This document shows positions 14,753 through 50,276 of a DNA stretch of 64,000 nt, in pieces (the stretch's first letter is position 1; each line of letters begins with the position of its first letter). The stretch is from assembly GCA_006218025.1 (NCBI GenBank), contig VBWA01000002.1, positions 1 to 64,000 of the forward strand. Direction: 5' to 3'. The notes beneath the pieces are model-generated. The model saw only the letters and a list, made by a program, of their open reading frames with translations. It ran no database searches and was not told where the DNA came from. Both the position numbers and the translations under genes were made by a program. The stretch comes from Rhodocyclaceae bacterium. Its GTDB lineage: Bacteria; Pseudomonadota; Gammaproteobacteria; Burkholderiales; Rhodocyclaceae.

Positions 14753-14803
14753 CTTCGCCTTTGTAAAAACTGAAGGTGGGTAGAGGGATCGATATCCCGT
14801 GAA

Positions 14804-14816: not shown

Positions 14817-14858
14817 GACACGGCGGCATAGTCGCTCGAAGGCAGAAAAGCTTCGACA

Positions 14859-15827: not shown

Positions 15828-15881
15828 ATTGTCCTTGCTCGTAGTGTTGTCCGGTCGCCGCCTTGTTTTCGGCCCCGGTGG

Positions 15882-18076: not shown

Positions 18077-18094
18077 GCGCGCCTTCTTGTCGGA

Positions 18095-20827: not shown

Positions 20828-20829
20828 GG

Positions 20830-22480: not shown

Positions 22481-22518
22481 GATTTTTCAATTTTCTTCCG
22501 ACGGAGACAGAGGTGTTC

Positions 22519-25706: not shown

Positions 25707-25774
25707 CTTGCATGGCGCGACGCACGCCCACACAGGGAGTTGCGCAACCGCTCAATTTGCAGCGAGCCCGCTTG

Positions 25775-26578: not shown

Positions 26579-26588
26579 GTGCGACTCC

Positions 26589-28327: not shown

Positions 28328-28340
28328 GGCGGCGACATTC

Positions 28341-29417: not shown

Positions 29418-29432
29418 GTGTCGTGCCTCAAC

Positions 29433-31597: not shown

Positions 31598-31599
31598 CG

Positions 31600-35477: not shown

Positions 35478-36670
35478 GGCGGATTTGCTTTTCTGTTCGA
35501 CAAGAATGCGCTGCTCGGCAGGTTTATCAGCCGTCTTGCCAGAGATTCGGCGCCCTCTAGGCTCATGGACGGACACTGGCGGAACGGCGCCAGACAGCTC
35601 ATCAGAGCCCATGCGGGCCGTGTCATCAGGCCTGCATCGTTGGTAGCTGCGAGGATGTCGTCACGCTGCTCGGCGATGGATTCCTCAAGGAGCAGCGCCT
35701 GCAGCCAATAGTTGCTATGGCAATCCGACGGCTCTTTCAACATCTTGACGCCTGGGACTGCCGCGAACGCATTTCGATAGCGTTCGAACAGCGTACGCTT
35801 GCTGTTGAGAAACCCGTCAATTTGCTCAAGCTGGGCGCACCCCAAGGCCGCATTGATGTTTGGCATGCGATAGTTGTAGCCGACCTCGTCATGCACGAAC
35901 TCCCAGCGATGGGGCACCTTGGCCGTGGTGGTCAGGTGCCTGGCCATGCGTGCAAGCTCGGGGTCGTTCGTAAGAATGGCGCCACCGCCACCGGTGGTAA
36001 TCGTCTTGTTGCCGTTGAAACTCAGAGTACCGAACAGCCCAAATGTACCGGTGTGCCTGCCGCGATAGTAGCTGCCCAGGGACTCTGCAGCATCCTCCAC
36101 CATGGTGATATTGAAGTCCTTCGCCACCGCCAGCAGCCCATCAAGATCCACAGGATGGCCGAAGGCATGCATGGGAACCATGGCTCGAATGATCCTCCCG
36201 GTGGCGCGGTTGACGCATAGACCGGCTCGCTGTTCAGTCTGACTGACCAGATGTGCACGCAGCTTGGCCGCATCCATTCCGAGGGTGGACTCTTCGCTGT
36301 CGACCAGATGGGGCGTGGCGCCGCAATAACTGACTGCATTGGCCGTGGCAACGAAGGTCAGGGCCGGAATCAGGACCTCATCGTCGATTCGCACGCCAGC
36401 CATCTTCAGGGCAATGTGCAGGGCAGCCGTTCCATTGACCACGGCAACAACATGTTTGGCGCCGGTATAACTTGCCAGTTCCGACTCGAAGCGATCAACG
36501 AACTTGCCTACCGATGAAACGAAGCTCGAATCCAGGCATTCCTTGACGTACAACCACTCGTTTCCGCCGAAACTGGGCTCGTGCAAGGCCGCGGATCCCG
36601 CGCCGACGACCGCGCGCAGGGCGCTGACGACCTCCTCAGCAAGAGACGTTGGCTGTGGCACCGGGCTCAT
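35474..36670 (-). CDS. legC: LegC-type PLP aminotransferase (DegT/DnrJ/EryC1 family)
   Basis: 398 residues from the ATG at 36670, which overlaps the legB stop by ATGA. The N-terminal EPSFGGNEWLYVKECLDSSFVSSVGKFV pattern (in part) is diagnostic of LegC proteins. AVVNGTAALHIAL, MVEDAAESLG and the PLP lysine in SFNGNKTITTGGGG follow. It transfers an amine to C4 of the 4-keto-6-deoxy sugar made by LegB, giving the 4-amino precursor of legionaminic acid. Pairing with legB is the standard arrangement. Confidence 0.92.
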   Translation of the reverse strand: MSPVPQPTSLAEEVVSALRAVVGAGSAALHEPSFGGNEWLYVKECLDSSFVSSVGKFVDRFESELASYTGAKHVVAVVNGTAALHIALKMAGVRIDDEVLIPALTFVATANAVSYCGATPHLVDSEESTLGMDAAKLRAHLVSQTEQRAGLCVNRATGRIIRAMVPMHAFGHPVDLDGLLAVAKDFNITMVEDAAESLGSYYRGRHTGTFGLFGTLSFNGNKTITTGGGGAILTNDPELARMARHLTTTAKVPHRWEFVHDEVGYNYRMPNINAALGCAQLEQIDGFLNSKRTLFERYRNAFAAVPGVKMLKEPSDCHSNYWLQALLLEESIAEQRDDILAATNDAGLMTRPAWALMSCLAPFRQCPSMSLEGAESLARRLINLPSSAFLSNRKANPP

Positions 36671-37665
36671 ACGTTGTAGACGTCCGCCTTGTACCCCATC
36701 AGCTTGCCGGAATGCGCAAACCATTCCGCTGTTTCGGCAAGGCCGCGTTTGAATCCTTCGCGGCCGCCATAGGCAGGCTGCCAGCCAAAAAGCCGACTGG
36801 CTTTGGCGTTGTCCGCCCAGAGTCGTTCAACCTCGGAGTTTTCGGGCCGCAAGCGGGCTTCGTCGGTGACGATCTCGATCTCTGCGTTCATGGCTTCCGC
36901 GATCAGCCGGGCGGTATCGCCTATCGAGATTTCAAAGTTGCTGCCGAAATTGACTACTTCGCCCAGGCCCAGGTCGGAATTCAATGCGGCGACGAATCCG
37001 TCTACCGTGTCGCCCACGAAATTGAAATCCCGGGTCGGCGTTACGGCACCTAGTCGAATCTGGCGCCTGCCGCTGGCGATCTGCGTGATGATGGTCGGGA
37101 TCACCGCACGGGCTGACTGGCGAGGGCCATAGGTGTTGAATGGGCGCGCGATCACCACCGGCAGGCCGAAGGACGAGTAGAAGGAATAGGCCAACTGGTC
37201 GGCGGCGATCTTGGTCGCCGAATAGGGCGACTGGCCCTGCAAGGGGTGATCCTCCGTGATCGGTACATAGCGCGCCGTACCATAAACTTCGCTGGTCGAA
37301 GTATGGATCACCCTGCCGACACCAAGTTCGCGCGCTGCCTGCAATACATTCAGCGTGCCCTTGATATTCGTATCGACATAGGTATCGGGCGAGTGATAGG
37401 AGTAGGGAATCGCAATCAAGGCCGCCAGATGCAGCACCGCGTCCACTCCCCGGACCGCCTCCTTCACTCCGTGCGGATCCCGGATGTCGCCGGCAAAGAC
37501 TTCGAACCGGCCCTTGACGTCCGGCGCGCAGTGATCGAGCCAACCCCAGGAATTGAAGGAGTTGTAAAGCACGAAGGCGCGAACTTCGTGACCCTGGCGA
37601 ACCAGTGCTTCGGTGAGGTGCGAGCCGATGAAACCGTCGGCGCCGGTAACAAGGACCTTCGTCAT
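36667..37665 (-). CDS. legB: LegB-type NAD-dependent 4,6-dehydratase
   Basis: 332 residues from the ATG at 37665 (MTKVLVTGADGFIGSHL); a TTG at 37686 overlapping the upstream stop is less likely. The cofactor loop TGADGFIGS, IHTSTSEVYG, the SPYSATK pair and ARPFNTYGPRQSARAVIP are characteristic of LegB. It removes water from an NDP-GlcNAc (GDP-GlcNAc in this pathway) to make the 4-keto-6-deoxy sugar for LegC. It is clearly distinct from the WbpM- and CapE-type dehydratases elsewhere in the locus. Confidence 0.92.
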   Translation of the reverse strand: MTKVLVTGADGFIGSHLTEALVRQGHEVRAFVLYNSFNSWGWLDHCAPDVKGRFEVFAGDIRDPHGVKEAVRGVDAVLHLAALIAIPYSYHSPDTYVDTNIKGTLNVLQAARELGVGRVIHTSTSEVYGTARYVPITEDHPLQGQSPYSATKIAADQLAYSFYSSFGLPVVIARPFNTYGPRQSARAVIPTIITQIASGRRQIRLGAVTPTRDFNFVGDTVDGFVAALNSDLGLGEVVNFGSNFEISIGDTARLIAEAMNAEIEIVTDEARLRPENSEVERLWADNAKASRLFGWQPAYGGREGFKRGLAETAEWFAHSGKLMGYKADVYNV

Positions 37666-37682
37666 GTCAATGCCGCCATTTC

Positions 37683-38642
37683 TCAAGAGCCATTCGAATC
37701 CCCCGGGCCGTAGCCGGCCATCCGGTCATAGATGGCACAGTGCTGGAGCTGTTCGTCAGCCGAGCAGAACAGGCTGTCATCTCCGTCCAGAAACGCCTTG
37801 GTCTGCATGTACAAGCCCGGCTTGAATTCCTTGTCCAGGCGATCATCGAGTTCGACGCTTTCCGCCTTTACGGAACCCAGCAGAATTACCTGCAACTGTT
37901 CCATGGGCCTGAAAACGAATCGCCGTTTGCGCGTCAGCACCTCCACGCCCCAGCGGCCCGGCGCTTCCCAGTCTGCCTGATAGCTGAACAGCACGCCCTT
38001 TTCGGTAATTCCCGAGCCGCAGAATCTTGCAGCGGACGGATGCCAGCTCAGCGATCCTCCGTACCACGCACTCCAGCCGGCCGGAAATCCGCACAAATGG
38101 AAAGCAAGGTCGACGACATGTGTGGAGTTGGCGAGAAACCATACCTCCTTTACTCCCGGTCCCTTGGTCAATGGCGCGATCACATGGGACCACTCGGTAA
38201 ACTCGAACGAACAGCTTGTCGCACCACCGTCTTCGACAATCATCCTCCTGGCCGTGGCCGCAGAGGCGTAGAAGCGGCGGTTATAAGCAATCAGAACCTC
38301 GGCACCGTGTCTGGTTGCAACCTGCGCCAGTTCGCTGACCTGCGCCGTGTTCAATCCGCCCGGCTTTTCGACCAGGATGCGTCGGGTACCTGCCTCAATC
38401 AGTTCGATGGCGGTGTCCGCCAACTGCTCGACGCCGACAGCGACTATTGCCCGTTCCGGAGCGTCGAGCGCCCGCAGGGCAGCGGACAGGCCGCCTTGCC
38501 TTGCGGGACGTCCGGTAGCCGATTCGAACTTCTCGGCGGAAGCGGTGGATCTTCCGATAACGGAATATTCAAGGTCGAGGGCATTCAATACCTTCACATA
38601 GTCCTGCGCCATCACACCGGCGCCAATTAACCAAAGACTCAT
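37683..38642 (-). CDS. Gfo/Idh/MocA family oxidoreductase
   Basis: 319 residues, shorter than the other paralogues. LWLIGAGVMAQDYVKVL is the nucleotide-binding loop and RILVEKPGGL the EKP motif; LANSTHVVDLAFHLCG covers the family histidine. It is encoded next to another Gfo/Idh enzyme and upstream of legB, so it may act on the same amino sugar, for example at C3 or C7. No substrate can be assigned. Confidence 0.84.
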   Translation of the reverse strand: MSLWLIGAGVMAQDYVKVLNALDLEYSVIGRSTASAEKFESATGRPARQGGLSAALRALDAPERAIVAVGVEQLADTAIELIEAGTRRILVEKPGGLNTAQVSELAQVATRHGAEVLIAYNRRFYASAATARRMIVEDGGATSCSFEFTEWSHVIAPLTKGPGVKEVWFLANSTHVVDLAFHLCGFPAGWSAWYGGSLSWHPSAARFCGSGITEKGVLFSYQADWEAPGRWGVEVLTRKRRFVFRPMEQLQVILLGSVKAESVELDDRLDKEFKPGLYMQTKAFLDGDDSLFCSADEQLQHCAIYDRMAGYGPGDSNGS

Positions 38643-38660
38643 TTCGTCTGCTTCGTCAGT

Positions 38661-39626
38661 TTACGTAATCGGGACGGCAATCGCCTTGAAATCGACTGCT
38701 TGTCGCCAGTGCTGCAACATGCCGCCGATGAAGACGCGGTGAAGGGCAAGCGATTCTTCCAGTGTCGGCAAATGGCAAGTACCCTTCTCCAGCAGGGATT
38801 CGACCAGGGGAGCCGTCATTTCGCTCTGGTACTCCATCCGCCCAGGGATCGCCAGCCCGTCGGAGCGGCTGGCCAGGCCATCGGCCTCTTTGATCAGCCA
38901 TGTTAGTCGACTATCAGTCACCTCCAGCCGGGTAGGCTCGGTACCCTTTCCTGCATCAAGTACCGCGCACGATCCTCCCGAAAACCGCGCTTCCAGCACT
39001 CCTGCTATTTCCCAGACGCCGCGGCGTTTGCTCTCGTACCAGGGTGGTATCAGGCGATCTGTGATCAAGCTCTGCAAAGTTTCCCCTGTCCACCAGGCGA
39101 GAAGATCAAGAACATGAACGGCATTGCACGCCAGTCCCCACGCCCCACCTTCCATGCGCAACGTCATCGGACGCGCCAGGCCAAGCTGGGCCTTGATGGC
39201 TTGATGCCAGGGCATCATTCTGCGAGGGGTATTGACCCAGGCGTTGGCGCCGCTCCCAACTCCGGCGACAATTTCATCGAGGCCCGACAGGCTTTGCGCC
39301 AGGACTTTTTCCAGCACCCAGAAGCGCACGGCAGCATGCCTGGCAATCTTGCCAAGCAGCGCGGGACGAACGTCGGCGGTAGTAGCCACGATGACAATGT
39401 CGAATTCCCGGGGCAATGTTTCAACCGCCTCATGGAATAGGACTTCATGGTCGGATTCTGCGCCATGGACTTCGCTCCAACGCTGGCGTGCCCGCTCAAG
39501 AGCCTCCGCAACGACGTCGTGGACATGGATCCGCAACGGCATGCGGCATTTCGCCAAGCCCTGAAGATAACGGGATCCAAGCTGGCCTGCGCCGGAAACA
39601 CAGACAGTCGCAACGGCAGACCTCAT
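38661..39626 (-). CDS. Gfo/Idh/MocA-like oxidoreductase (divergent)
   Basis: 321 residues. VCVSGAGQLGSRYLQGL binds NAD(P), but the usual EKP is VLEKVLAQ, with Val replacing the proline. ACNAVHVLDLLAWWTGE carries the conserved histidine region. Loss of the proline and the diverged loop suggest a different substrate or a weakened enzyme. It stands in tandem with the preceding Gfo/Idh gene (18-base gap), consistent with an old duplication followed by divergence. Confidence 0.78.
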   Translation of the reverse strand: MRSAVATVCVSGAGQLGSRYLQGLAKCRMPLRIHVHDVVAEALERARQRWSEVHGAESDHEVLFHEAVETLPREFDIVIVATTADVRPALLGKIARHAAVRFWVLEKVLAQSLSGLDEIVAGVGSGANAWVNTPRRMMPWHQAIKAQLGLARPMTLRMEGGAWGLACNAVHVLDLLAWWTGETLQSLITDRLIPPWYESKRRGVWEIAGVLEARFSGGSCAVLDAGKGTEPTRLEVTDSRLTWLIKEADGLASRSDGLAIPGRMEYQSEMTAPLVESLLEKGTCHLPTLEESLALHRVFIGGMLQHWRQAVDFKAIAVPIT

Positions 39627-39663
39627 GGTTTCAATGCTCGCTCGAAATGCATTTGATATGCCG

Positions 39664-40782
39664 CTACGTTTGCGGCCGAGGAGCCGGCTTCGCCTTGGCG
39701 TGAAATGTCGACACGATGGACTCGATCTTTGCGACTTCCTCGAAATCCACCCGGACTCCTGTCGCCGCCAATTCCCTGGCTGCCTCCAAAATCGGCCTTG
39801 GGGCGTGGCGAAGCGACTTCATGAAGGGGTAAAGCGCTTTTCTTGCAAGGGCTTTCAACGAGCCTGGCAAATGTTCGGTGGCTTTGGCCTTGAACTGCTG
39901 AACCGCTCCGGTCCTGCGCCGGGACGACAGTGCTTGTCCATACGCGTGATAGGCGTCGAGCGCGGTTTTCACACCTGCTTCGATTTCTGCCGGTACCGCC
40001 GTGCCTTCCGCCAGAGTGACGCCCATTATGGCCAGGAACTCGGCATGCTCGGCATTCTTGGCCGGATCCGACCACCAGTTGGCGAAGGTATTCGCCGGCG
40101 CAAGGGATATGTCCGTTCCCCGGGTTGGCGACACTTCGCTGGACCTCAGCCACGTTAGCTCGGGAAGCACCCGGGACTTCCCCTGGTAACAGATGGCCAG
40201 CTCGATTTGAAGTTCGCCAATGGCGTAAACAGGGAATTCCTTTCTTGTATAGGTCGAGACGGCCCTGCGCCAAACCGGGGTGCGCACCACGGAATAGACC
40301 GTCGAACAGGTATACGGGTGCATATGTGCAACCATGCGCTCGATTGGATCGCTCTGGAGAACGGTGTAGCTTTCCATTGCCAGATAGTCTGCATTGCCCC
40401 ATACCCCCTCGACCGTATGGTTGAAGCGGAGGCATCGTCCCATGCACGACACCAACTCCGGCTGCGAATCCAATTCAGCAATGCACGCCTCCAAACCGCT
40501 CGGAACGAAAAACTCGTCGTCGCCTGCCAGAGCCACGTATTCGGTATCCAGGTATCCGAAAGAGGCTTCCAGCCTTTGAATAAATGAAGCTGGCAAATGA
40601 TGATAGTGAATGTTTCCTGCAAACCCATCCAGATCACTTGGCGATATCGGCGTTGGACTGCCATCGATGATGTGGACCGCAACACCTTGCCCGGACCAAT
40701 ACCTCATGCTCCGCAGCGCAAAGGAAGGTCGGTCATAGCTTGGAATGACCAGGCTCAGTTTCGACAGAAGCGGACGCTTCAT
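39664..40782 (-). CDS. Family 2 glycosyltransferase (TIGR00180-like)
   Basis: 372 residues. LSLVIPSYDRPSFALRSM starts the GT-A domain and YVALAGDDEFFVPSGLEAC contains the acidic donor motif. FPVYAIGELQIELAI and WLRSSEVSP follow, as in the TIGR00180 glycosyltransferase group. The last ~90 residues are basic and probably peripheral. Its stop overlaps the next gene's start (40779-40782). Donor and acceptor unknown. Confidence 0.8.
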   Translation of the reverse strand: MKRPLLSKLSLVIPSYDRPSFALRSMRYWSGQGVAVHIIDGSPTPISPSDLDGFAGNIHYHHLPASFIQRLEASFGYLDTEYVALAGDDEFFVPSGLEACIAELDSQPELVSCMGRCLRFNHTVEGVWGNADYLAMESYTVLQSDPIERMVAHMHPYTCSTVYSVVRTPVWRRAVSTYTRKEFPVYAIGELQIELAICYQGKSRVLPELTWLRSSEVSPTRGTDISLAPANTFANWWSDPAKNAEHAEFLAIMGVTLAEGTAVPAEIEAGVKTALDAYHAYGQALSSRRRTGAVQQFKAKATEHLPGSLKALARKALYPFMKSLRHAPRPILEAARELAATGVRVDFEEVAKIESIVSTFHAKAKPAPRPQT

Positions 40783-41540
40783 CGAACTCGCTTCAAATAG
40801 CCGTCCGGCGCAACGCTTATCAGCAGCTTGTGATCGATCCGCTTGTCAATCTCGAACTCCGTATGGGACTTCAGGTACTCCCATACGGCGGTCTTCGGAT
40901 TATTGCCCGGGCCCCAGGGGCGGTCGACAATCAAGTCGGCCGGGATGTCTTCAACGACGGTATCGAAGACCACGCAGTAGCTGCCTCGGGTAGTCAGCGG
41001 CGCATAGGCCTCCAGTTCCGCCAATACATGATCGTGGGTATGGTTCGAGTCGAGGCATACCAGCACGGTGTCGTATCCCGTGGCGATCTTGCGGACCTCG
41101 GCCACGATTGCCGGATCGATGCTGGAACCCTGAATCATCTGGATGCGCGACGAGAGCGGATGCGCCTCGATTGCCGCCCGATTATGGGCGCGTATGTCGA
41201 TATCGACGCCAAGCACCTTGCGGCGCGGCCGCCCGGTTCCGACGCCTGTCTCCGCATCACATACATCAAGCAGGGCGAGCATCGAGGCGCTGAAAACCAG
41301 GGAACCCCCGTGCGCAATGCCGGTCTCGATGATCAGGTCCGGTTTCACCTCCCAGATGATCTCCTGCATCGCCATCATGTCTTGCGGATACTGGATGACG
41401 GGGCGTCCCAGCCATCCGTAATTGTAGGAATACATGGCCGCGATGGAGGTCCGCATGAAGGCCTCCGCGCTTGCGCACAACGCCTCATCGCCCGGATTCG
41501 CAGCGATCCTGCTTTCCACTTCCTTTTCGAATTCAGTCAT
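40779..41540 (-). CDS. CmcI-like (cephalosporin hydroxylase family) methyltransferase
   Basis: 253 residues from the ATG at 41540. YNYGWLGRPVIQYPQDMMAMQEII is the family's N-terminal hallmark and IIETGIAHGGSLVFSASML is SAM motif I. VLGVDIDIRAHNR, DSNHTHDHVLAELEAYAPL and VEDIPAD follow. Although annotated as cephalosporin hydroxylases, such proteins in polysaccharide loci are SAM-dependent O-methyltransferases, as for rhamnosyl methylation in mycobacterial glycolipids. It overlaps the next methyltransferase by eight bases. Confidence 0.85.
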   Translation of the reverse strand: MTEFEKEVESRIAANPGDEALCASAEAFMRTSIAAMYSYNYGWLGRPVIQYPQDMMAMQEIIWEVKPDLIIETGIAHGGSLVFSASMLALLDVCDAETGVGTGRPRRKVLGVDIDIRAHNRAAIEAHPLSSRIQMIQGSSIDPAIVAEVRKIATGYDTVLVCLDSNHTHDHVLAELEAYAPLTTRGSYCVVFDTVVEDIPADLIVDRPWGPGNNPKTAVWEYLKSHTEFEIDKRIDHKLLISVAPDGYLKRVR

Positions 41541-42585
41541 GATCGACACACACATATCGGTAGGCATTGCTGGACATTTGCTTGATCTCTTGAAGGTAGT
41601 TTGAGTTCATGACATAGATTGTCGATCCGGCCGGCAGCATTGCCAGGCCTTCCTCGGGTGATAGAACTTTGAGGCCGGTGGCGGGAAGATATTTTCCCTG
41701 CTTGGCGGGATTGATATCGATGACAAGCTCGATGGGGCGGTTGATCCGTTCTCTCAGGAGAGTGAAAATGACGCCTTTCGATGCTCCGCCCCACACTGCG
41801 GACCTCTCGGGCTGTTCGACATCACCGAGATCGCCCAGGAAGTCATCGGGAAACGACACCCGGTCGCAAGCATCGGCCCGCGCCGGTTTCAGGCTGGCAA
41901 GATCGGCGACGACGTAAAGGTATTGTCCGCCGAAGATCCGCCCGCTTTCGATGACGCGATCGAACATGCGCCCGAAATCCGCCAGGCGAAAATAGTTTGC
42001 GTGCTCGTAGAAGATGTCGAACCACGCGCGATGCTCGCATATCCAGTCGAAGCAGGGCACCTCTATGTAAATGAGGCCGGAGCCCTCGTTGGCTGTGCGC
42101 AAGCCCTGAAGGAACTGCTGAGGGTTCTGTATGTGTTCGAGCACGTGGCGAAGGATCAGGGCTTGCGCGGTCATTCCGACTCCCGGTTCGAAGTGGTGTC
42201 GCTTGATGCGCGGGTTGGAACCTTCGTAGGCGGAATCGAAGCCGGTGATGTCGAAGCCGCTTTCCGACAAGGCTTCCACGAAGTAGCCCTTGCCGCAGCC
42301 CACTTCGACCAGACCGGATCGACCGATGGTCCGCTCGACGATTTTCGCAACGCTGCCGAGATGGTCGCGAAACTGCGGGCTTACGGCCTGCTCGTTCTGG
42401 TACCGGGCGTCATAGACCATGAGTTCGGGACAAAAATCCGCGTTGCTGACCAGCCCCGTTGCAAGGTCTTGAACCAAGCGAACGTTGCCACGGGGGCATG
42501 ATCGCGCCTCTTGTGCAGAGTCGTACATCCGGTTCTGGAAGATCGGCAACTGCTCGACGCGATACAACTCCTGCTCGTTCAGCAT
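41533..42585 (-). CDS. SAM-dependent methyltransferase, sugar C-methyltransferase type
   Basis: 350 residues. GLVEVGCGKGYFVEALSESG is SAM motif I, and ALILRHVLEHIQNPQQFLQGL the later core motif. The C-terminal half (VWGGASKGVIFTLLRERI, LVIDINPAKQGKYLPATG) is typical of the second domain of NDP-sugar C-methyltransferases. A nearby zinc-binding type (43490) also has this second domain. It is therefore likely to act on an activated sugar, possibly the CDP-sugar made by the adjacent genes. Confidence 0.83.
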   Translation of the reverse strand: MLNEQELYRVEQLPIFQNRMYDSAQEARSCPRGNVRLVQDLATGLVSNADFCPELMVYDARYQNEQAVSPQFRDHLGSVAKIVERTIGRSGLVEVGCGKGYFVEALSESGFDITGFDSAYEGSNPRIKRHHFEPGVGMTAQALILRHVLEHIQNPQQFLQGLRTANEGSGLIYIEVPCFDWICEHRAWFDIFYEHANYFRLADFGRMFDRVIESGRIFGGQYLYVVADLASLKPARADACDRVSFPDDFLGDLGDVEQPERSAVWGGASKGVIFTLLRERINRPIELVIDINPAKQGKYLPATGLKVLSPEEGLAMLPAGSTIYVMNSNYLQEIKQMSSNAYRYVCVDHD

Positions 42586-43457
42586 CGCAGCTCCCGACTG
42601 GCGGCCATTTCAGCCGTCGAATGCATGGGCTGCCAGCCGAGCGCTTTCAATTTTCCGTTGTCGCCGAGAAGTATTTCAGGCTCGTCGGGGCGTTCCGTCG
42701 ACAAGTCGAGCACGATGCGGGGATCGCCGTTGGCGGCATTCGCAATCACCCGCACTACCTCGGCGATTTCCATCGGCCGACCCGACGCAATGTTGTAGCT
42801 TCCCTCGGCGCCGGACAGAAGCAGCCGGACGAAACCGCTGGCGACGTCGTCCGCGTGCAGAAAGTCCCGATAGGCGCTGGCGTTCACGCCAAAGGGAGGG
42901 CGCCTCCCCTGAAAGACCTCCACCAGAGAAGGTATCAGGCGCCGCCTGTCTTCGCCATTTCCATAGGGCAGGAAAACCCTGCCCCACGCAAGAGGTATCT
43001 GCTTGGTGCCGCAAACCTCGGCCAGCAAGCGTCGGGTTGCATCTTTTGCCGTGCCATACATGCTGGCCGGCCTCAGCGGTGTGGCGTCCTCACGGCAATA
43101 GCCGCATGACCAATCATATTCGGCGCAGGTACCGGCCGCGACGACTTTCTGTCCGCCCGCAGCGCAAAAAGCCTCAACCAGGCGGACGGATGCCTCCAAC
43201 CAGCGAAGGTTCAGCGGTGATGCCCAGTATTTTCCGTACTCCGCGTACCACGCCAAATGAATCAGGTGAGTCGGTCGCGCGCGATCGATGAGGTCGGCAC
43301 AACCGTTGGGTTGCAACAGATCAGCCCGGATGAAGTCCCCCGAATGCCCGACAGGGCTGGAGCGCCCAACGACGACCACGTCGATTTTCTGCTGGAGCAG
43401 CCGCCTCAGGACGTATCGCCCGAGGAATCCGCTGGCTCCGGTAAGAAGTACTCTCAT
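42579..43457 (-). CDS. NDP-sugar reductase/epimerase (extended SDR)
   Basis: 292 residues from the ATG at 43457; the open frame upstream runs into an intergenic repeat and is not used. LLTGASGFLGRYVLRRL binds cofactor, VVAAGTCAEYDWS and the SMYGTAK Tyr/Lys pair form the active site. It is placed directly after the CDP-glucose 4,6-dehydratase, 3,5-epimerase-like protein and C-methyltransferase genes, so it probably reduces the 4-keto group to finish a CDP-C-methyl-6-deoxyhexose. The interspersed repeat ends about 10 bases before its ATG. Confidence 0.83.
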   Translation of the reverse strand: MRVLLTGASGFLGRYVLRRLLQQKIDVVVVGRSSPVGHSGDFIRADLLQPNGCADLIDRARPTHLIHLAWYAEYGKYWASPLNLRWLEASVRLVEAFCAAGGQKVVAAGTCAEYDWSCGYCREDATPLRPASMYGTAKDATRRLLAEVCGTKQIPLAWGRVFLPYGNGEDRRRLIPSLVEVFQGRRPPFGVNASAYRDFLHADDVASGFVRLLLSGAEGSYNIASGRPMEIAEVVRVIANAANGDPRIVLDLSTERPDEPEILLGDNGKLKALGWQPMHSTAEMAASRELRC

Positions 43458-43466
43458 GTCAGTAAA

Positions 43467-43479
43467 AGTCGGCGCTGGC
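43467..43479 (+). repeat. Interspersed 13-mer repeat before the reductase gene
   Basis: Plus strand reads AGTCGGCGCTGGC, continuing GGGACGGCGGTCAA. It fills the 32-base gap between two minus-strand genes and is in the opposite orientation to transcription. It is closest to the copy inside matB (59328). Confidence 0.8.
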
Positions 43480-43489
43480 GGGACGGCGG

Positions 43490-44716
43490 TCAATCGAGCA
43501 ATCTGAGCGTGGGCACAGCAATAAAGAACCTCCCGCCCCATTCGCGGATGAAGTCAATTTGCTGCCTAATCTCATCCGCGATGTTCCACGGCAGGATCAG
43601 GACAAAATCAGGCCGGCGCTCGATCAGCGCGGCCGGCGGCAGAATCGGGATATGGCTGCCCGGGAGATAGCTCCCCTGCTTCGACGGCGCGGCGTCACAA
43701 ACAAACGGCAGAAGGTCCGGCTTGACGCCGGCGAAATTGAGCAGGGTGTTGCCTTTGGCGGCGGCTCCATAGGCCGCGACAGTTTGGCCGGCACGTTTTT
43801 TTTCGAGGAGGAATGCAAGAAGCCCATGCTTGATAGCCTCGGCACGAGACTGAAATTGCCAATAGGTATCGAGCTTGCGAAGGCCGCCATCCTCTTCGGC
43901 CCGGATGAGTTCCGCGACGGCCGGCGTGTCGCGCCGGGGGTCATCGGAGTGACAACCGAACACGCGCAGGCTGCCGCCGTGGGTCGTCAATTGTTCGACA
44001 TGCCAGACGCGCAGACCGGCTTGTCGGAAGATGCGGCGGACGGTGTGCAATGACAAATATGAAAAATGCTCGTGGTAGACGGTGTCGAACTGGGCTTCCT
44101 GGATCAAGCGGAGCAGATGCGGAAATTCCAGGGTGATGGTACCGCCCGGCTTGAGTGCCGCCCTGAGGCCGGCCGTAAAATCGTTGATGTCCGGCACGTG
44201 GGCATATACGTTATTGCCGAGAATCAGATCGGCCTGCCTGCCCTGACCAGCGAGTTCACACGCCAGAGGTTCGCCGAAGAATTGGCGCAGAACGGGAATA
44301 CCGAGGGCCTCGGCAGCAGCAGCGGTGCTGGCGGTAGGCTCTATCCCCAGGCAGGGAATGCCCGCGGCGGCGAAATTCTTGAGCAGGTAACCGTCGTTGG
44401 AGGCGACTTCGATAACGAAGCTGTCTTTGGAAAGGCCGAGACGCTGCCGCATCTCTTCCGCATAACGTCGCGCGTGTTCCAGCCATGTCGTCGAGGTCGA
44501 GGAAAAGTAGGCGTAATCCTTGCTGAACAGCGCATCGGCACTGGCGTAGTCTTCCGTTTGAACGAGCCAGCAGGTGTCGCAGACATAGAGCTTGAGGGGA
44601 AACCAGGTTTCCGGCGCATGCAGGTCGCGTTCGGTCAGATACGCATTCGAGGGCGGCGCAAAGCCAAGGTCGAGAAAGACATGTGTGAGCGCCGCCTGGC
44701 AGTGACGGCAGTTCAT
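43490..44716 (-). CDS. Sugar C-3-type methyltransferase with N-terminal zinc-binding domain
   Basis: 408 residues. The N-terminal CRHCQAAL...CDTCWL cysteines (about 3-50) form the zinc-binding domain of the TylC3-like family. FVIEVASNDGYLLKNF is SAM motif I, LEFPHLLRLIQEAQFDTVYHEHFSYLSL is the signature region, and the C-terminal AAYGAAAKGNTLLNF domain completes the three-domain layout. The family adds a C-methyl group to a keto-deoxysugar, as in mycarose, yersiniose or virenose synthesis. It is coupled by ATGA to the epimerase-like gene, supporting a CDP-C-methyl sugar. Confidence 0.9.
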   Translation of the reverse strand: MNCRHCQAALTHVFLDLGFAPPSNAYLTERDLHAPETWFPLKLYVCDTCWLVQTEDYASADALFSKDYAYFSSTSTTWLEHARRYAEEMRQRLGLSKDSFVIEVASNDGYLLKNFAAAGIPCLGIEPTASTAAAAEALGIPVLRQFFGEPLACELAGQGRQADLILGNNVYAHVPDINDFTAGLRAALKPGGTITLEFPHLLRLIQEAQFDTVYHEHFSYLSLHTVRRIFRQAGLRVWHVEQLTTHGGSLRVFGCHSDDPRRDTPAVAELIRAEEDGGLRKLDTYWQFQSRAEAIKHGLLAFLLEKKRAGQTVAAYGAAAKGNTLLNFAGVKPDLLPFVCDAAPSKQGSYLPGSHIPILPPAALIERRPDFVLILPWNIADEIRQQIDFIREWGGRFFIAVPTLRLLD

Positions 44717-45264
44717 GCGCCGATCCCGGGAAACGCATCGTCGAGAAGCGGATGGTTCCGGTCTCGCTCCGACAGATCGGCCGCTTCAAGCGGCCAGGAT
44801 ATCCCGACTGCAGGGTCGTCATGACGAACACCGCCTTCGGCGGCTTGTTCGTAATGCGCGGTATGCAGATACAGCAGTTCGCTGTCAGCTTCGAGCACCT
44901 GAAAACCGTGCGCGCAGCCTTCCGGAATTACCAGCATGGTTGCGCGTTCAGGCGAAAGCTCTTCGGCGTGCCATTGCAGAAAGGTGGCGGAACCGCGCCG
45001 CAAATCGAGCGCGACATCCCACACGCGACCTCGCAGACAACGGACGAATTTCATCTCGGCATGGGGCGGTCGCTGGTAGTGCATGCCACGCACCGCCGCG
45101 ACCGCGCCGGTACGCGAATGGTTGATTTGCACGATGCGGCGAGTGCCCAGAACTGCGGCAAGTTCGCGCTCGCAGAACCATCGCTCGAACGACCCGCGAT
45201 GATCGGCGAACGGGGTGGTATCGACCACCGCGACGCCGGCTAGCGGCGTCGGTCGAATGTTCAT
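44713..45264 (-). CDS. dTDP-4-dehydrorhamnose 3,5-epimerase family protein (RmlC-like cupin)
   Basis: 183 residues, the RmlC length, from the ATG at 45264 that overlaps the rfbG stop by ATGA. DHRGSFERWF, QINHSRTGAVAAVRGMHYQ and RGRVWDVALDLR match RmlC, and IPEGCAHGFQVLEADSELLYLHTAHY holds the cupin motif. It epimerises C3 and/or C5 of a 4-keto-6-deoxy sugar. Because the partners here are RfbF and RfbG, the substrate is expected to be CDP-linked rather than dTDP-linked. That is inference from operon order. Confidence 0.9.
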   Translation of the reverse strand: MNIRPTPLAGVAVVDTTPFADHRGSFERWFCERELAAVLGTRRIVQINHSRTGAVAAVRGMHYQRPPHAEMKFVRCLRGRVWDVALDLRRGSATFLQWHAEELSPERATMLVIPEGCAHGFQVLEADSELLYLHTAHYEQAAEGGVRHDDPAVGISWPLEAADLSERDRNHPLLDDAFPGIGA

Positions 45265-46355
45265 GTCGCACCCCATGAAACATCGCGTTTCCGCGCCGCA
45301 GCGACATATTCGAAAAGCTGGTCACGGCTCGGCGGCTTGTCGTCGGAGAAGTGTGCCTGGTACCACGTCGCGGTTTTTTCCAGGGCTTCTTCAAGCGTCC
45401 AGACGGGGCACCAATGCAGGCGGCTGCGCGCCTTTGCCGTATCCAGCCGAAGCAAGCCTGCCTCGTGCGGATGAGTCTCGTTGCTCCTGTGCCACGAGAA
45501 CTGCGGCCAATGGCCGCGCATGGCGCGCAGCACCTCTTCAACACTGCGACTGTCGGCCGCCTCCGGGCCGAAGTTCCACGCTTCGGCAAAGGCGGCGTCC
45601 CTTGCCAGCAACCGCTGGCCAAGCATGAGATATCCGGCGAGGCATTCGAGGACGTGTTGCCAGGGGCGAACGGCGCCGGGCGAGCGGATTTCGACCGATT
45701 CGCCTCGTGCAGTGGCACGGACGATATCGGGGATAAGCCTATCCTCCGACCAGTCGCCGCCGCCGATCACGTTACCGGCGCGCGCACTGGCGATCAGGGG
45801 CGCGTTCTCCGCCGAAAAGAAGGACTTCCGGTAGCTGGCAACCACGAGTTCGGCGGCGGCCTTCGAGGCGCTGTAGGGGTCGTGCCCTCCAAGCGCATCG
45901 TTCTCGCGGTAACCCCAGGGCCATTCGTTGTTCTGGTAGACCTTGTCTGTCGTCACGGCAACGACTGCCTTCAGGCCATTCACGCCACGGCAGGCGTCGA
46001 GCAGGTTTGCCGTGCCGATGACATTCGTAGTCCAGGTATCGAGCGGCGCGCGATAGGAGCGGCGCACCAGCGCTTGCGCCGCAAGGTGGAAAACGACTTC
46101 CGGTTTGGCCTCGGCGACCGCCGTGGCAAGCCGGCCGGCGTCCCGAATATCGAAACGCAGGTCTCGCACCGGCAAGCCCAACAAGTCCCAGTGGTTGGGC
46201 GCCGTTTCGGGATCGAGGGCAATGCCCGTTACCTCTGCGCCAAGCTCATGCAGCCAAAGGGCAAGCCAACTGCCCTTGAAGCCCGTATGGCCGGTTACCA
46301 AAACCCGCCGTCCGGCGTAGGCGTCGCCGAATGCCTTCACGTCCATACCCGCCAT
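45261..46355 (-). CDS. rfbG: CDP-glucose 4,6-dehydratase
   Basis: 364 residues from the ATG at 46355 (or 46346). [18 protein letters not shown] is the cofactor loop, unusually specific to Rfb[11 protein letters not shown], the DPYSASK pair and [21 protein letters not shown] also match. It turns CDP-glucose into CDP-4-keto-6-deoxyglucose, the branch point for CDP-tyvelose, paratose, abequose, ascarylose and C-methyl sugars. It overlaps rfbF (stop at 46337). No rfbH 3-dehydrase is present, so a 3-deoxy CDP-sugar is unlikely. Confidence 0.94.
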
Positions 46356-47107
46356 GGCGCACGACCGCTGCCCCAGAGTTCTTCGAGATGGTTCTTGTCG
46401 CGCAGGGTGTCCATCGGCTGCCAGAAGCCCCGATGCTGGTAGGACATCAACTCGCCCGCTGCAGCCATTTGCACGAGGGGATCCGCCTCCCAACTGGTCT
46501 GATCGCCGTCGATGAAATCGATCACGCGCGGCTCGAGGATGAAGAATCCGCCGTTGATCCAGGCGCCATCACCAGCGGGCTTTTCCTGAAAGCTCAAAAC
46601 GCGTCCGGCATCTATCTCCAGCGCGCCGTAGCGACCGGGAGGCTGGATTGCCGTTACCGTGGCCAGTTTCCCGTGGCCACGATGAAAGGCAAGTTGTGCC
46701 GCAATGTCGATATCGGCAACGCCGTCACCGTAAGTGAAGCAGAAAGCCCCGTCATCGAGATGGTCGCGCACCCGCTTCAGACGCCCGCCGGTCATCGTGT
46801 CGGGCCCGGTGTCGACCAGCGTCACCCGCCACGGCTCGGCTGAATTCTGATGCACTTCCATGCGGTTTTGCGCCATGTCGAAGGTGACATCGGACATATG
46901 CAGGAAGTAGTTGGCGAAATACTCCTTGATCACATAGCCGCGGTAACCAAGGCAAATAATGAAGTCGTTGATCCCATAGCGGGAATAGATCTTCATGATG
47001 TGCCAGAGTATCGGCTTGCCACCAATCTCGATCATCGGCTTGGGTTTCAGGTGCGATTCCTCGATGATGCGGGTGCCGAGACCACCGGCGAGAATGACGG
47101 CTTTCAT
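46337..47107 (-). CDS. rfbF: Glucose-1-phosphate cytidylyltransferase
   Basis: 256 residues, the usual length. [22 protein letters not shown] is the pyrophosphorylase loop, in the form specific to Rfb[29 protein letters not shown] and [11 protein letters not shown] also match. It forms CDP-glucose from CTP and glucose-1-phosphate and so starts the CDP-sugar branch. It overlaps the flippase stop by ATGA (47104-47107). Confidence 0.94.
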
Positions 47108-48906
47108 GCTGAGGGCCTTTCGGCAGATGTGGATGCTTGGACGGCCTGGATCTCAGTGTAAGGCGCAATGCGGCGTATGCCGCCGTTCCCAAGCTCGACT
47201 ATCCGGGAACAGTTTCTCAAGGTCGTCAGACGATGAGCAATGATCAGAACGGTAAGGTCGTCACTCAGGCCGTCGATGGCTTGCATTACTGCCTGCTCGG
47301 TTTCGTTGTCCAGTGCACTGGTGGCCTCGTCGAAAATAATGACGTCGGCTTGCTTGTAAAGGGCGCGGGCGATGCCGATACGCTGGCGCTGGCCGCCGGA
47401 AAGCCGGATGCCGCGTTCGCCAACGAAGGTCTGGTATTTTGCGGGCCAAGTCTCGATGGTATCGGCTATCTGTGCCTGGCGTGCGGCCCGCCTGACACGC
47501 TCGACGTCTATCCCGTCCCTGGGCTGACCAAAGGCTATGTTCTCTTCTATGGTGACGTCCGCAAGAAAGATCGTTTGCGGGACATGTGCGACGTGTGCCT
47601 GCCATGCCCGGCAATTGCCGGGCGTGACGGGCCGGCCATCGATCTCCAGCGTGCCTTCGTTTGCCTGCAGCAGGCCCATCACGATATCAAGCAAGGTGCT
47701 CTTGCCGCTGCCGGTCAGGCCGATGAAGCCGATGCGGCTGCCTTTTGGAATGGCGAGATCAAGGTTCTGCAGAACCCATGGTGCTTGCGGGCTGTAGCGG
47801 AATCCGATCTGGTTCAGGCGGATGTGCCGCTCGAAGGGCATCTGTTCGGCGACGGCCTGGTCGGCATGTTCGGGAAGGGGCTGGTTCAGCAGGTCAAGGG
47901 CGTCCTGCAGGGACGCCCTCCCGCCCTGAATCCCGGACCAGGACGCATACGCCTGCTGCAGCACGGGCAACAGCCGCTGGGCACCGAGTGCCAACGCACC
48001 CAGCACAGGGATCGCCCTGGCGATGCCATCCGCTTGCTGAGCGAGCACATAGGCCAGTACGGCTATCAACACCATACCCAACGCTTCGGTCGCGTAGCGC
48101 GGGCTGCCCGCGATGAACGCACTGCTGCCCTGGGAGCGGCGCAACGGCAGATCGGCGTCGCGGTAGATTTGGCAATAGGCCATTTGACTGCCGTCGAGCA
48201 ACACGTCGCGAATGCCTCCCAGACCTTCCTGCAGCGACTTGATCACACGAGTGGACTCACGGGCAACCACCTGGCTGTTGACCCACAGCCGATTCCGGGT
48301 AATCCGGATGATGGCCGCGTAGATCATGCCGAAGCCGCCGAATGCCGCCAAAGCGATGAAGGGTTCGATGGCCAGCAGCGCCATTAGTATCGCAATCAAC
48401 ATGACCATCGCCCCGATCAGGGTAAGGAGCATCATGATCGTGTGTATTACGACACCGGCTTTGGTCGCGATGGCATTGATGATTTCGCTGCTGTTGCGGG
48501 CGACATGGACCGAATAAGGCTGATAGAGAGTGCGGCGGTAAATGGAAATGCTGAGATCGGCCCCCGTAGCGTAGGAAAGCCGCGTGCTCGCCCACAGGAG
48601 CAACAGGCGCATCGCACCAGCCACCAAGGCTGCCAGGCCGAAGGCGATGGTCAGCGGCAACAGGAGTTGCTCCGGCCCTGAGAGCCCCAGAATCCGAATG
48701 AACGGCTGCGTAACGGGGAGCAGGAAAACGCCGCCCGGGTTGGTCAGCACGCCGAGGAAGGGCAACACCGCTCCGATGCTGAGAATTTCGGCGAAGGAGG
48801 CGAGAACCATCAAGACGAGCAGGAGTGCGAACTGCGCCCGTCGTCGAGGGACGATGTGGTGCCATAACTGGCTGAGAAGCTGCGTGACCGGCTGGATGGG
48901 TTGCAC
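47104..48906 (-). CDS. ABC transporter, PglK/MsbA-like lipid-linked oligosaccharide flippase
   Basis: 600 residues starting at GTG. The N-terminal half contains six hydrophobic segments and the C-terminal half a fused ATPase: Walker [11 protein letters not shown], signature [15 protein letters not shown], Walker [13 protein letters not shown] and the H-loop IIAHRLTT. In surface glycan loci this half-transporter type, PglK in Campylobacter, flips complete lipid-linked oligosaccharides across the inner membrane in place of Wzx. No Wzx, Wzy or Wzz is present in the window, which fits a PglK-like export of a short glycan. The target (protein or lipid A) is not encoded here. It is the first structural gene after the ops site. 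Confidence 0.88.
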
Positions 48907-49075
48907 GAGTTAAGGCGGGTTAGGGATGAGTGGGCTGGCGGGTACTGCTTCCGCAGAATCCGACTTTCGGCGATGCTTTACCTGCGCCGGTCCGAAAAAT
49001 GCAAATCGTGGAACGCAACGGGCCGTGGCTGTGGCAAGTCTTGGGGATTCCGTAGAAACTTCAATTCGCCGCCTT

Positions 49076-49088
49076 GCCAGCGCCGACT
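49076..49088 (-). repeat. Interspersed 13-mer repeat in the operon leader
   Basis: Minus strand AGTCGGCGCTGGC. It lies inside the loop of a perfect 9-base-pair inverted repeat (CCGCCTTGC / GCAAGGCGG) downstream of the ops site. The flank differs from other copies after the core. Confidence 0.75.
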
Positions 49089-49118
49089 CTTGCTGCAAGG
49101 CGGTGCGATGAAATCTGG

Positions 49119-49130
49119 CACGCTACCGCC
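49119..49130 (-). promoter_or_regulatory. ops element (RfaH recruitment site)
   Basis: The minus strand reads GGCGGTAGCGTG, an exact match to the 12-base operon polarity suppressor core known from E. coli, in the correct orientation for the leftward operon. It is 130 bases after the rfaH-like stop codon and 213 bases before the flippase start. RfaH binds this element on the paused transcription complex and suppresses termination in long operons. The longer JUMPstart context is not obvious. Confidence 0.85.
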
Positions 49131-49136
49131 ATGCCC

Positions 49137-49152
49137 GTGCGCCGCGGCGCAC
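49137..49152 (-). other. Perfect palindrome just upstream of ops
   Basis: GTGCGCCGCGGCGCAC is self-complementary over all 16 bases. In RNA it would form a six-pair stem with a four-base loop six bases before the ops element. It could act as a pause hairpin that holds the polymerase near ops, or as a protein-binding site. Function not shown. Confidence 0.5.
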
Positions 49153-49260
49153 AGCAGATGCTTGCCTCGTTACTTCTGTTGTTTGCTTCAACCTGACGCC
49201 TTACATCGTCCGGCGCAAAGAGCTTGTTTGCGGCGAAACGCTTTTTCGCTAACTATTCAG

Positions 49261-49869
49261 TTAGCTGACAACCAACAGCTGATGGTGACTCAGACTCACT
49301 CGTGTGTCTTGTCCGAGCAGTTGCATCAGGACGACAACCCTTTCCTGGGAAACGCCCGATATCAGTCCGTCAAGCCCTGACAACGGACCATCGACGACGC
49401 GGACCCGTTCTCCGGGCTGAAAGGGGCTGATCTTCTCATCACCAGCTTCGTTCCAACGGGCTTCGAAATCGATAATGCTGCTCAGGATCTCAGGCCTCAT
49501 TACTGCGGGTTCCTGGCCAAAACGCACAATGGTCGTTACGCCCAGAGTGGAGCGCACCGGAGCAATAGAGTGGGCGCTTGAGCCAGGTTGCAAAAAAAGA
49601 TAGCGCGGAAACAGCGGTTCCTTTTGAGCCTGCTGACGACCACGAATGCGTTTCAATCTCTTGATTCGCGGCAGATAGACGGCGTAGCCTTGGCGGGCAA
49701 GGTTCTCGCACGCTGTCTGCTCCTGCCGGACTTTGGTATGCACGACATACCAGGGCAGGTTTGCGGCGGTGTCTTCGGCAACCCGCATAGTGGCAGAGGA
49801 CCGGGCTAGCGCCAGACTGGATAACGAATTCAGGTGGTGCTCAAGCACCGTTTCGCGCAACAGGCTCAT
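49261..49869 (-). CDS. rfaH: RfaH/NusG-like transcription antiterminator
   Basis: 202 residues; E. coli RfaH is 162. The start at 49869 is supported by ATGA overlap with the upstream regulator. It adds an N-terminal extension of about 37 residues with no match to RfaH. The NGN domain (LPWYVVHTKVRQEQTACENL at 38-57, then YLPRIKRLKRIRG) and C-terminal KOW domain (FQPGERVRVVDGPLSGLDGLI) follow. NGN-KOW specialists bind RNA polymerase at ops sites and stop premature termination. Placement in front of a 44-gene operon with an ops site 130 bases downstream makes that role very likely here. Confidence 0.9.
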   Translation of the reverse strand: MSLLRETVLEHHLNSLSSLALARSSATMRVAEDTAANLPWYVVHTKVRQEQTACENLARQGYAVYLPRIKRLKRIRGRQQAQKEPLFPRYLFLQPGSSAHSIAPVRSTLGVTTIVRFGQEPAVMRPEILSSIIDFEARWNEAGDEKISPFQPGERVRVVDGPLSGLDGLISGVSQERVVVLMQLLGQDTRVSLSHHQLLVVS

Positions 49870-50204
49870 GCCGCGGCGTTTCTTTCAGCATCCTGCCGAA
49901 GCTCTTCGATCTCCTTGCGGATGGCTTCGTATTCAGCCACCTTGTGCTTGAGAAAGGCGGCAGTGAGAAGAATCTTTGCTTCAATGCCTCTGGGGGTGAG
50001 CAGGTAGCTGTAGGCAAGTTTGTTGTCGTTGCGACGAAAGTTGTCCATTTTCACCAACCCCTTCTGGACCAATGCCTGCAGGCAGTAATTGGCTTTGCCC
50101 AAGCTAACGCCCATCGCCTTGGCCATTTCTCGCTGCTGAATGGCGGGGTTGGCGTCGATGAGCTTAAGCAGCTTGTAGTGATGGGATTCGGGGAACACGG
50201 TCAT
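49866..50204 (-). CDS. MarR-type EPS-associated transcriptional regulator
   Basis: 112 residues. A winged-helix domain (YKLLKLIDANPAIQQREMAKAMGVSLGKANYCLQALVQKGLVKM, in parts) is followed by a basic coiled C-terminus. From memory this matches the short MarR-family regulators associated with exopolysaccharide loci (TIGR04176-like). It is the first gene of the transcription unit, coupled by ATGA to the antiterminator. A promoter and a palindromic operator overlap its 5' side, so it probably regulates itself and the locus. Confidence 0.88.
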   Translation of the reverse strand: MTVFPESHHYKLLKLIDANPAIQQREMAKAMGVSLGKANYCLQALVQKGLVKMDNFRRNDNKLAYSYLLTPRGIEAKILLTAAFLKHKVAEYEAIRKEIEELRQDAERNAAA

Positions 50205-50227
50205 TGCAATGATGGCTTTGAATTGGC

Positions 50228-50246
50228 CTGTTCATGGTTTGAACAG
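50228..50246 (-). promoter_or_regulatory. Inverted-repeat operator of the MarR-type regulator
   Basis: Minus strand CTGTTCA-AACCA-TGAACAG, a perfect 7-base inverted repeat with a 5-base spacer. It lies between the -10 element and the start codon, 24 bases from the ATG. This is a standard position for repression by a dimeric winged-helix protein. Binding is inferred. Confidence 0.6.
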
Positions 50247-50247
50247 T

Positions 50248-50276
50248 AGTTTAGCGGGCTGAGGGGCCATTGGCAA
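50248..50276 (-). promoter_or_regulatory. Sigma-70-like promoter for the glycan locus regulator
   Basis: Minus strand: TTGCCA (50271-50276), 17 bases, TAAACT (50248-50253). Spacing is optimal and each hexamer matches the consensus at four or five positions. Its predicted start lies within the inverted repeat downstream. Confidence 0.55.

Follow-up and report, generated by a model that had tools for sequence, protein, structure and literature searches.

Organization of the locus

The window, by which we mean the whole 64,000-nucleotide stretch of Rhodocyclaceae DNA analyzed in this work, contains a long polysaccharide operon that is headed by a compact block of regulatory elements. Listed from the promoter side, the features are as follows:

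50248..50276, minus strand: sigma-70-like promoter TTGCCA-17-TAAACT, before marR (promoter scan)
50228..50246, no strand: inverted repeat CTGTTCA-N5-TGAACAG, the proposed MarR operator, with the core GTTCA-N5-TGAAC at 50230-50244 (pattern counts)
49866..50204, minus strand: marR, gene for a winged-helix regulator of the MarR_EPS family, 112 aa (TIGR04176, 149 bits, cut-off 88)
49261..49869, minus strand: gene for an RfaH-like specialised NusG paralog (NGN-KOW), 202 aa (TIGR01955, PF02357, AlphaFold2)
49132..49156, minus strand: predicted RNA hairpin directly 5' of ops, JUMPstart-like, with 10 pairs, one bulge and a four-base loop (folding of the stretch upstream of ops, ops itself left out)
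49119..49130, minus strand: ops core GGCGGTAGCGTG, the proposed loading site for the RfaH-like protein (exact match and conservation)
48907..49118, minus strand: leader from ops to the first structural gene
2706..48906, minus strand: target operon for surface polysaccharide, about 44 same-strand ORFs (ORF list; Pfam on 20 of the 44)

An earlier, sequence-only reading of this DNA had recognized an exact ops core 130 bases behind the gene of an NGN-KOW antiterminator, itself coupled to a MarR-type regulator, and all of this holds. GGCGGTAGCGTG at 49119-49130 is the sole exact copy in the 64-kb window, 130 bases separate the stop codon of the rfaH-like gene from the start of ops, and the rfaH-like ATG overlaps the stop codon of marR (ATGA), whose product matches TIGR04176 with the score listed above. 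Where 44 downstream genes on a single strand had been claimed, about 44 minus-strand ORFs indeed run from 48906 to 2706. Pfam searches with 20 of them gave matches for 16, mostly to sugar-nucleotide, methyltransferase, glycosyltransferase and polysaccharide enzymes; the operon includes an ABC transporter, a nucleotidyltransferase, epimerases, methyltransferases, an aminotransferase and a glycosyltransferase, and its last ORF encodes a Polysacc_synt_2 enzyme. The widest gap between the chosen operon ORFs measures about 212 bp, and no Shine-Dalgarno-like sequence is seen before the GTG at 48906, with which the first structural gene begins. The regulatory unit is larger than originally described, as the hairpin and the likely MarR operator also belong to it.

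The promoter and the putative MarR operator

TTGCCA-17-TAAACT is the sole promoter-like match between 48800 and 50450, a region for which shuffled sequences give an expectation of 0.5. Internal promoters had been named as an alternative source of distal expression; across 2.6-20.5 kb we found four promoter-like sites versus 4.8 expected, i.e. no excess, and in 48800-50450 only the promoter of marR. By eye, -10-like stretches precede the operator in several relatives, too.

The core of the inverted repeat begins three bases past the -10 element. Of 47 distinct MarR_EPS genes, 34 have an exact copy of it in the 220 bp on their upstream side (mean of shuffles 0.01), and 36 have one if a single mismatch is allowed (mean of shuffles 0.3), the pattern having been derived from the same sequences on which it was then counted; duplicates, stretches shorter than 60 bases and a mis-sliced one (L069) were left out. 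In the genome under study the core is found in one place, and so is the reversed-pattern control. Among the best 80 of 416 loci that encode the NusG paralog, the 32 with ops contain 29 operator copies and the 48 without ops contain one; in 28 of those 32 loci the operator lies upstream of ops. GTTCA-N5-TGAAC is thus likely to be the operator of MarR_EPS, to judge from these counts, and because it adjoins the -10 element, MarR_EPS would be expected to repress its own gene.

The RfaH-like protein

The antiterminator finds its best match among six NusG-type families in TIGR01955 (RfaH), with 122.5 bits against a cut-off of 144.5. The NGN domain scores 66.6 bits with the NusG family PF02357 and the KOW domain 17.6 bits with PF00467, which is under the cut-off of 22.3; the NGN-KOW layout is nonetheless present, and the structural model shows a five-strand C-terminal domain. 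The designation "RfaH-like" therefore stands inasmuch as RfaH is the best family, but the protein is not a canonical RfaH, being below the NCBIfam cut-off and having H20 and R73 replaced. The genome contains only one other NusG-type match, which is 27% identical and looks like NusG.

According to parts of PMC5995543, ops is contacted by the side chains K10, H20, R23 and R73, and one recognition mode is suggested there for all RfaH proteins. The window protein keeps K10 and R23, and has N in place of H20 and L in place of R73; with two of the four ops contacts replaced, recognition of the same 12-mer is not a given. Among the 32 ops-bearing relatives from the best 80 of 416 loci, K10 is kept in 32, R23 in 31, H20 in one and R73 in two. 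F56, a high-affinity contact to the polymerase (PMC7593976, in part), is F in 34 of 34 aligned proteins, and E48 and R138 are kept in the window protein as well as in all 80 relatives (best 80 of 416). The residues associated with autoinhibition are E48, I93 and F130, with R138 as a partner; of these, I93 is replaced by L and F130 by I in the window protein. AlphaFold2 (mean pLDDT 92.1, pTM 0.70; 34-row alignment, no positive control) models the C-terminal domain as a beta-barrel and not as the autoinhibited alpha-hairpin, a prediction that would still be compatible with a domain that switches its fold. Parts of PMC7593976 place R73 late and regard the ops contacts and autoinhibition as having arisen together. 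At the window locus, ops is exact though H20 and R73 are absent.

Conservation of ops beside the rfaH-like and MarR genes

Taken by itself, the 12-mer is not significant: with up to two mismatches the window contains seven matches versus 8.9 expected, and the 4.44-Mb genome has two exact copies versus three of the reversed pattern. The argument against chance comes from the conservation of the site next to the rfaH-like and MarR genes. The other exact copy in the genome (C112, L002) was considered as a second target and rejected, since it reaches 16 bits with the hairpin-ops model described below, a background-like score.

Within the genus, ten of 31 genomes encode the specialised NusG paralog, and in all ten a MarR_EPS gene adjoins it. 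The sequence-only reading regarded loss of the ops core from close relatives that keep the rfaH-like gene as evidence against its proposal; the core is in the same place in ten of the ten, where GGCGGTAGC(G/A)TG lies 53-141 bp past the stop codon of the paralog, and one of these elements has GGCGGTAGCATG as its ops core. A covariance model of hairpin plus ops, used to score 150 candidates per genome, finds a single strong site in each of the ten (31.3-48.1 bits), scores that are partly circular because the model was trained on these ten elements. The 21 genomes without the paralog, several of them incomplete assemblies, yield no comparable element (best 23.1 bits); neither this absence nor the presence of just one strong copy per genome is affected by the circularity. 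MarR_EPS is encoded in six of the 21 paralog-free genomes. The description of the switch as self-contained also fits, as this genome has one specialised paralog, one operator place and one strong hairpin-ops site.

A search of relatives for the 12-mer near pairs of RfaH-type and MarR-type genes had been proposed as a check. For the best 80 of 416 paralog loci, with ops counted at no more than one mismatch, 30 loci have both MarR and ops, two have MarR only, two ops only and 46 neither (Fisher p 2.6e-17, kinship ignored). The 585,879 bases of these loci contain the exact 12-mer 29 times in forward orientation, never as the reverse complement and once as the reversed pattern; one of 200 shuffled 12-mers counted in the same loci redrew ops itself, and the rest have at most two copies. 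Of the exceptions, L069 and L110 encode MarR and the paralog and have no ops in the locus, but the L069 contig starts at marR, so that ops further upstream is possible. In L064 and L112 ops is present and MarR was not detected, L112 having just 981 bases upstream. A one-mismatch site in L084, 2.3 kb upstream of the gene, was not counted.

The arrangement of the block varies among the 32 ops-bearing loci: marR-rfaH-OPS is found in 17, rfaH-marR-OPS in ten, OPS-marR-rfaH in two, rfaH-OPS in two and rfaH-OPS-marR in one. The sequences flanking ops diverge on both sides while the 12-mer is constant. The mismatches (L060, L063, L127) all fall on position 10 and none on G4-G8, an invariance that is partly by construction, because a match to ops with no more than one mismatch was the criterion by which the elements were chosen. 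In a tree of 83 rows (midpoint root, for drawing only), ops-bearing rows are spread across several beta- and gammaproteobacterial branches, with 14 changes versus a shuffled mean of 26.5; one group, made up of 29 rows in which Alcaligenaceae and Comamonadaceae predominate, is without GGCGGTAGCGTG. A Shine-Dalgarno sequence was found for six of 28 first ORFs after ops (31 loci, three of them without an ORF), a count that carries little weight because the starts were chosen mechanically.

The class as a whole was searched in an even draw of 370 genomes with the 16-mer query GCAKGGCGGTAGCGTG, i.e. GCA[T/G]GGCGGTAGCGTG, which is independent of gene content. It occurs in 32 places in 29 of the 370 genomes. 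Twenty-four of these places are within 2 kb of a TIGR04176-type match, in all 24 cases on the same strand; the linked MarR matches exceed the TIGR04176 cut-off in seven cases, the other 17 being weaker relatives (57-69 bits), and in 18 of the 24 cases the flanking 1.5 kb contain an RfaH relative. Eight places are away from any MarR match, one of which (in G373) adjoins an RfaH relative, while three belong to G149 and G172, genomes that also possess a linked copy. Most MarR_EPS genes are without the 16-mer, since the 48 class genomes with an over-cut-off MarR_EPS include seven with a linked copy and 41 with none.

A predicted hairpin directly before ops

The 32 bases that precede ops were folded for 35 distinct elements, a set without L084 and without the duplicate L094. 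The 3' foot of a hairpin is placed 1-3 bases before ops in 35 of 35, versus a mean of 24.7 and a maximum of 32 in 200 shuffles in which the last four bases were kept. In 31 elements the stretch ending at ops has a mean fold z of -1.95, and six stretches shifted by 15-45 bases have means of -0.73 to +0.36. At further MarR-linked sites of the class the hairpin agrees in 22 of 23, a number that includes at least two sequences used before and comes with no shuffle count. In the model alignment, which was fitted to the structure, both sides change in nine of ten pairs, and the covariation score (0.255) and the share of paired cells (57.7%) were reached by none of 500 shuffles and are both above all slid versions. 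The same alignment shows no excess of further pair types (88 of 500 shuffles), and one slid version has 52 double-change cells versus 44 in the true alignment. Covariation within the genus only is weak, with one of 12 predicted pairs changed on both sides and a term of -0.23.

The window element taken alone has ordinary stability (z 0.18 with ops included). If ops is included in the fold of the window, L008 and L013 stretches, bases of ops are predicted to pair upstream, which gives a structure other than the proposed hairpin; the hairpin would apply to the moment when the ops RNA is still inside the polymerase. If U11 occupies the active site, the start of the natural hairpin would be about 12 nt upstream. 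The distance of the his pause hairpin is close to this value, which suggests that the hairpin before ops could, by analogy, strengthen the pause or limit backtracking. The ops-paused E. coli complex at U11 is presented in parts of PMC11001881 as distinct from RNA-hairpin-stabilised pauses and as prone to backtracking after RfaH binds; the word JUMPstart is absent from the main text of that paper.

With the Rfam model of JUMPstart RNA (RF01707), whose gathering score is 35, the window site reaches 18.9 bits and ranks second among background-level matches in the genome, and none of 18 related loci searched attains the threshold; as a sole classifier it was therefore discarded as uninformative here. 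Among 5,426 E. coli genomes, 1,576 match a 39-mer that we take to be the E. coli JUMPstart, and in 1,226 of these the match spans 80% or more of the 39-mer. Folded without ops, the portion upstream of it has its foot at -2; folded with ops, the stem extends to G1 of ops. A conserved stem-loop in JUMPstart was noted by PMC2864571 (seen in part), the source of the RF01707 motif.

Candidate variant sites and candidate sites in trans

Among the 48 loci without ops (best 80 of 416), 17 contain CGGTAGC as a core whose ends are altered, and in each of them a hairpin immediately precedes it; it reads TGCGGTAGCCTG in 12 of the 17, and the reverse-strand control gave two sites. Of the 17 corresponding proteins, 16 have R or K as residue 73 (best 80 of 416). 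However, since 14 of the 30 ops-less proteins with R/K at this position have no such site (best 80 of 416), and since a separate set of 120 genomes, drawn evenly from the order, contained three places versus three of the reversed pattern, the variant ops is a lead that is not independently confirmed. When genomes without MarR were searched for a hairpin-ops element acting in trans, ten of 18 gave matches at E <=0.01, with at most 27.7 bits. Inspection of 11 such loci revealed an ops-like core in seven, of which six lie inside open frames of at least 268 codons; L170, L181 and L175 of this set contain the exact 12-mer.

A possible mechanism and its alternatives

The sequence of ops, the structure that precedes it and the co-occurrence of both with the rfaH-like and MarR genes are conserved. 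In our opinion these observations are quite probably explained by a control cassette for a single operon, in which a MarR operator, an RfaH-like factor and a hairpin-ops loading site would together serve the 46-kb operon, by way of MarR repression, pausing, recruitment and antitermination. MarR_EPS would bind GTTCA-N5-TGAAC just past the -10 element and shut down its own promoter. Once repression is lifted, the polymerase would, as the layout suggests, transcribe marR and the overlapping rfaH-like gene, followed by the leader. The nascent RNA would form the hairpin, with its 3' foot 1-3 nt before ops, and the polymerase would pause near T11, about 12 nt away; the pausing is postulated from the E. 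coli ops, while the sequence and structure of the hairpin-ops element are conserved. This transcript also encodes the RfaH-like protein, which might then read the non-template GCGGTAGC loop of the paused complex and board the polymerase, as suggested by the co-occurrence of gene and element. If it behaves in the fashion of its family, the boarded protein would displace NusG, counter Rho and perhaps link a ribosome, and transcription would in this way reach the end of the 46-kb operon. Since a ready-made beta-barrel is predicted for the C-terminal domain, ops and synthesis nearby would provide the specificity, in place of autoinhibition.

One point against the cassette is that ops-like sequences pause diverse polymerases in the absence of RfaH (parts of PMC7593976). 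The hairpin and ops might be a mere strong pause that times folding or ribosome loading, with the RfaH-like protein acting in cis while it is being synthesized and ops remaining unread, a mode that has been proposed for monomorphic RfaH homologs; we regard this as unlikely, yet as the most serious of the alternatives. It agrees with the loss of H20 and R73, and with a hairpin at a distance like that of pause hairpins such as the one of his. It also agrees with the AlphaFold2 beta-barrel, a class that parts of PMC13015549 call ops-independent and operon-adjacent. However, in ops the mismatches are at position 10 alone and spare G4-G8, i.e. the bases that RfaH reads out and that are dispensable for pausing in E. 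coli (PMC5995543, in part), and the lack of the element from genus genomes without the paralog is not what a pause that serves only the operon would predict.

Another alternative is that the 12-mer is a relic, now without function, of a regulatory block that is transferred in one piece: genes and element do travel together, so that linkage alone would yield their co-occurrence. We consider such shared ancestry very improbable as the sole explanation, as the flanks of ops diverge while the 12-mer stays, and the gene order differs between loci (17, ten and five other of 32; best 80 of 416). As to a chance 12-mer beside an ordinary NusG paralog, the two exact copies versus three of the reversed pattern in this genome would be compatible with it, but its probability becomes negligible, and we consider it ruled out, in view of the conservation in the genus, in the wider loci (80, best of 416) and in the class genomes.

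Given that ops has been kept though H20 and R73 are replaced and a beta-barrel is predicted, the use of ops may predate autoinhibition. It is tempting to speculate, in a tentative manner and with somewhat more doubt than conviction, that the hairpin-ops loading site is older than the autoinhibition of RfaH, that fold-stable, cis-encoded factors of beta- and gammaproteobacteria use it via different residues, that the RNA hairpin, at the distance of a pause hairpin, is a working half of the natural signal, and that ops then diversified together with the protein (R/K73 relatives often having a hairpin and TGCGGTAGCCTG or close variants).

Relationship to known systems

A 2026 preprint (PMC13015549, seen in part) states that most monomorphic RfaH homologs adjoin long operons and proposes recruitment in cis without ops. 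By its layout the cassette is a counter-example to this proposal, as it is cis-encoded and predicted to be fold-stable with ops conserved, and the question of cis recruitment becomes directly testable with one small block of DNA. The MarR_EPS family, which is mentioned, by its name or part of it, in PMC10599003 and PMC8007912, gains a likely operator. Operator, hairpin and ops provide a searchable signature for large polysaccharide operons, and the recurring spacing of hairpin and ops suggests a natural signal of two halves. Similar kits occur in other proteobacteria and could help to explain how an antiterminator that is encoded locally reaches its target. Among the literature matches listed, no title or abstract describes a MarR_EPS-RfaH-ops unit.

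The system is of a known kind, that of RfaH and JUMPstart, and its cis-encoded variant is new. With E. coli RfaH/ops, the only case in which recruitment is known in detail (PMC7593976, in part), it shares the identical 12-base ops, the hairpin just before ops, the long polysaccharide operons and, in the protein, K10, R23, E48, F56 and R138. It differs in that E. coli rfaH is a separate gene whose product acts in trans on several operons and is autoinhibited by an alpha-hairpin (PMC7593976, in part), whereas the gene of the window factor stands, together with that of a MarR regulator, 130 bp ahead of the one strong site, and its product has N20, L73 and a predicted beta-barrel. JUMPstart RNA (RF01707) resembles the window site in having a stem-loop followed by GGCGGTAGCGTG in a polysaccharide leader, although the latter is below the Rfam gathering score. 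In cluster CL4 of PMC7593976, too, an RfaH-like protein is found next to an HTH regulator and envelope genes, and the cluster may include the present cassette, although the parts of that paper considered here give no ops, hairpin or operator for CL4. Finally, the cis-encoded NusG paralogs UpxY, LoaP and TaA resemble the window protein in being encoded at the operon that they serve. The window protein is below the cut-offs of UpxY (77.5 of 100) and LoaP (56.6 of 125), and its cassette, in contrast to cis-encoded paralogs of the UpxY/LoaP type, possesses an ops site.

Possible alternative RNA fold downstream of the window ops

Shortly 3' of the ops core in the window (49119-49130, minus strand) lies a ACCGCCTTGC stretch, for which the window sequence offers two pairing partners: GCATGGCGGT, which starts ahead of ops and extends through its 5' half, and a second stretch farther downstream. 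These two options may constitute an alternative fold.

Pairing options of the ACCGCCTTGC stretch (minus strand)
49095-49104 with 49125-49134, the ops region
49060-49077 with 49095-49112, the farther stretch

Distribution of the proposed loading site and its candidate variants

Two genomes of the genus (G010 and G029; loci L007 and L010) possess the MarR_EPS regulator and retain its proposed operator, and neither an rfaH-like gene nor a strong hairpin-ops site was found in them, suggesting that the antiterminator and its loading site were possibly lost jointly. In G172 and G149, the extended 16-mer ops pattern occurs both as a copy linked to MarR_EPS and as additional copies not near any MarR_EPS match (C116:8562 and C157:18270 in G172; C1:1766790 in G149, preceded by a hairpin), which are possible targets in trans.

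Five rfaH-like genes (L117, L122, L127, L129, L070) come from records labelled Chitinophaga, Cytophagales, Bordetella parapertussis or Akkermansia. In the tree they cluster with other proteobacterial members, and the records are perhaps mislabelled or represent mixed metagenome bins.

A candidate variant loading site, mostly reading TGCGGTAGCCTG, was observed in 17 rfaH-like loci with neither GGCGGTAGCGTG (the ops core) nor a detected MarR_EPS; it lies 3' of the rfaH-like gene and is directly preceded by a hairpin.

Loci with the variant site
First listing: L074, L077, L079, L083, L087, L091, L096, L098, L100, L119, L128
Second listing: L075, L090, L109, L114, L121, L134

Confirmation of this site was sought in an independent draw of 120 genomes of the order and was not obtained. 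At residue 73 (E. coli RfaH numbering), where Arg contacts ops in E. coli, 16 of the 17 variant-site loci encode Arg or Lys, in contrast to the loci with GGCGGTAGCGTG, just two of which (of 32) encode Arg.
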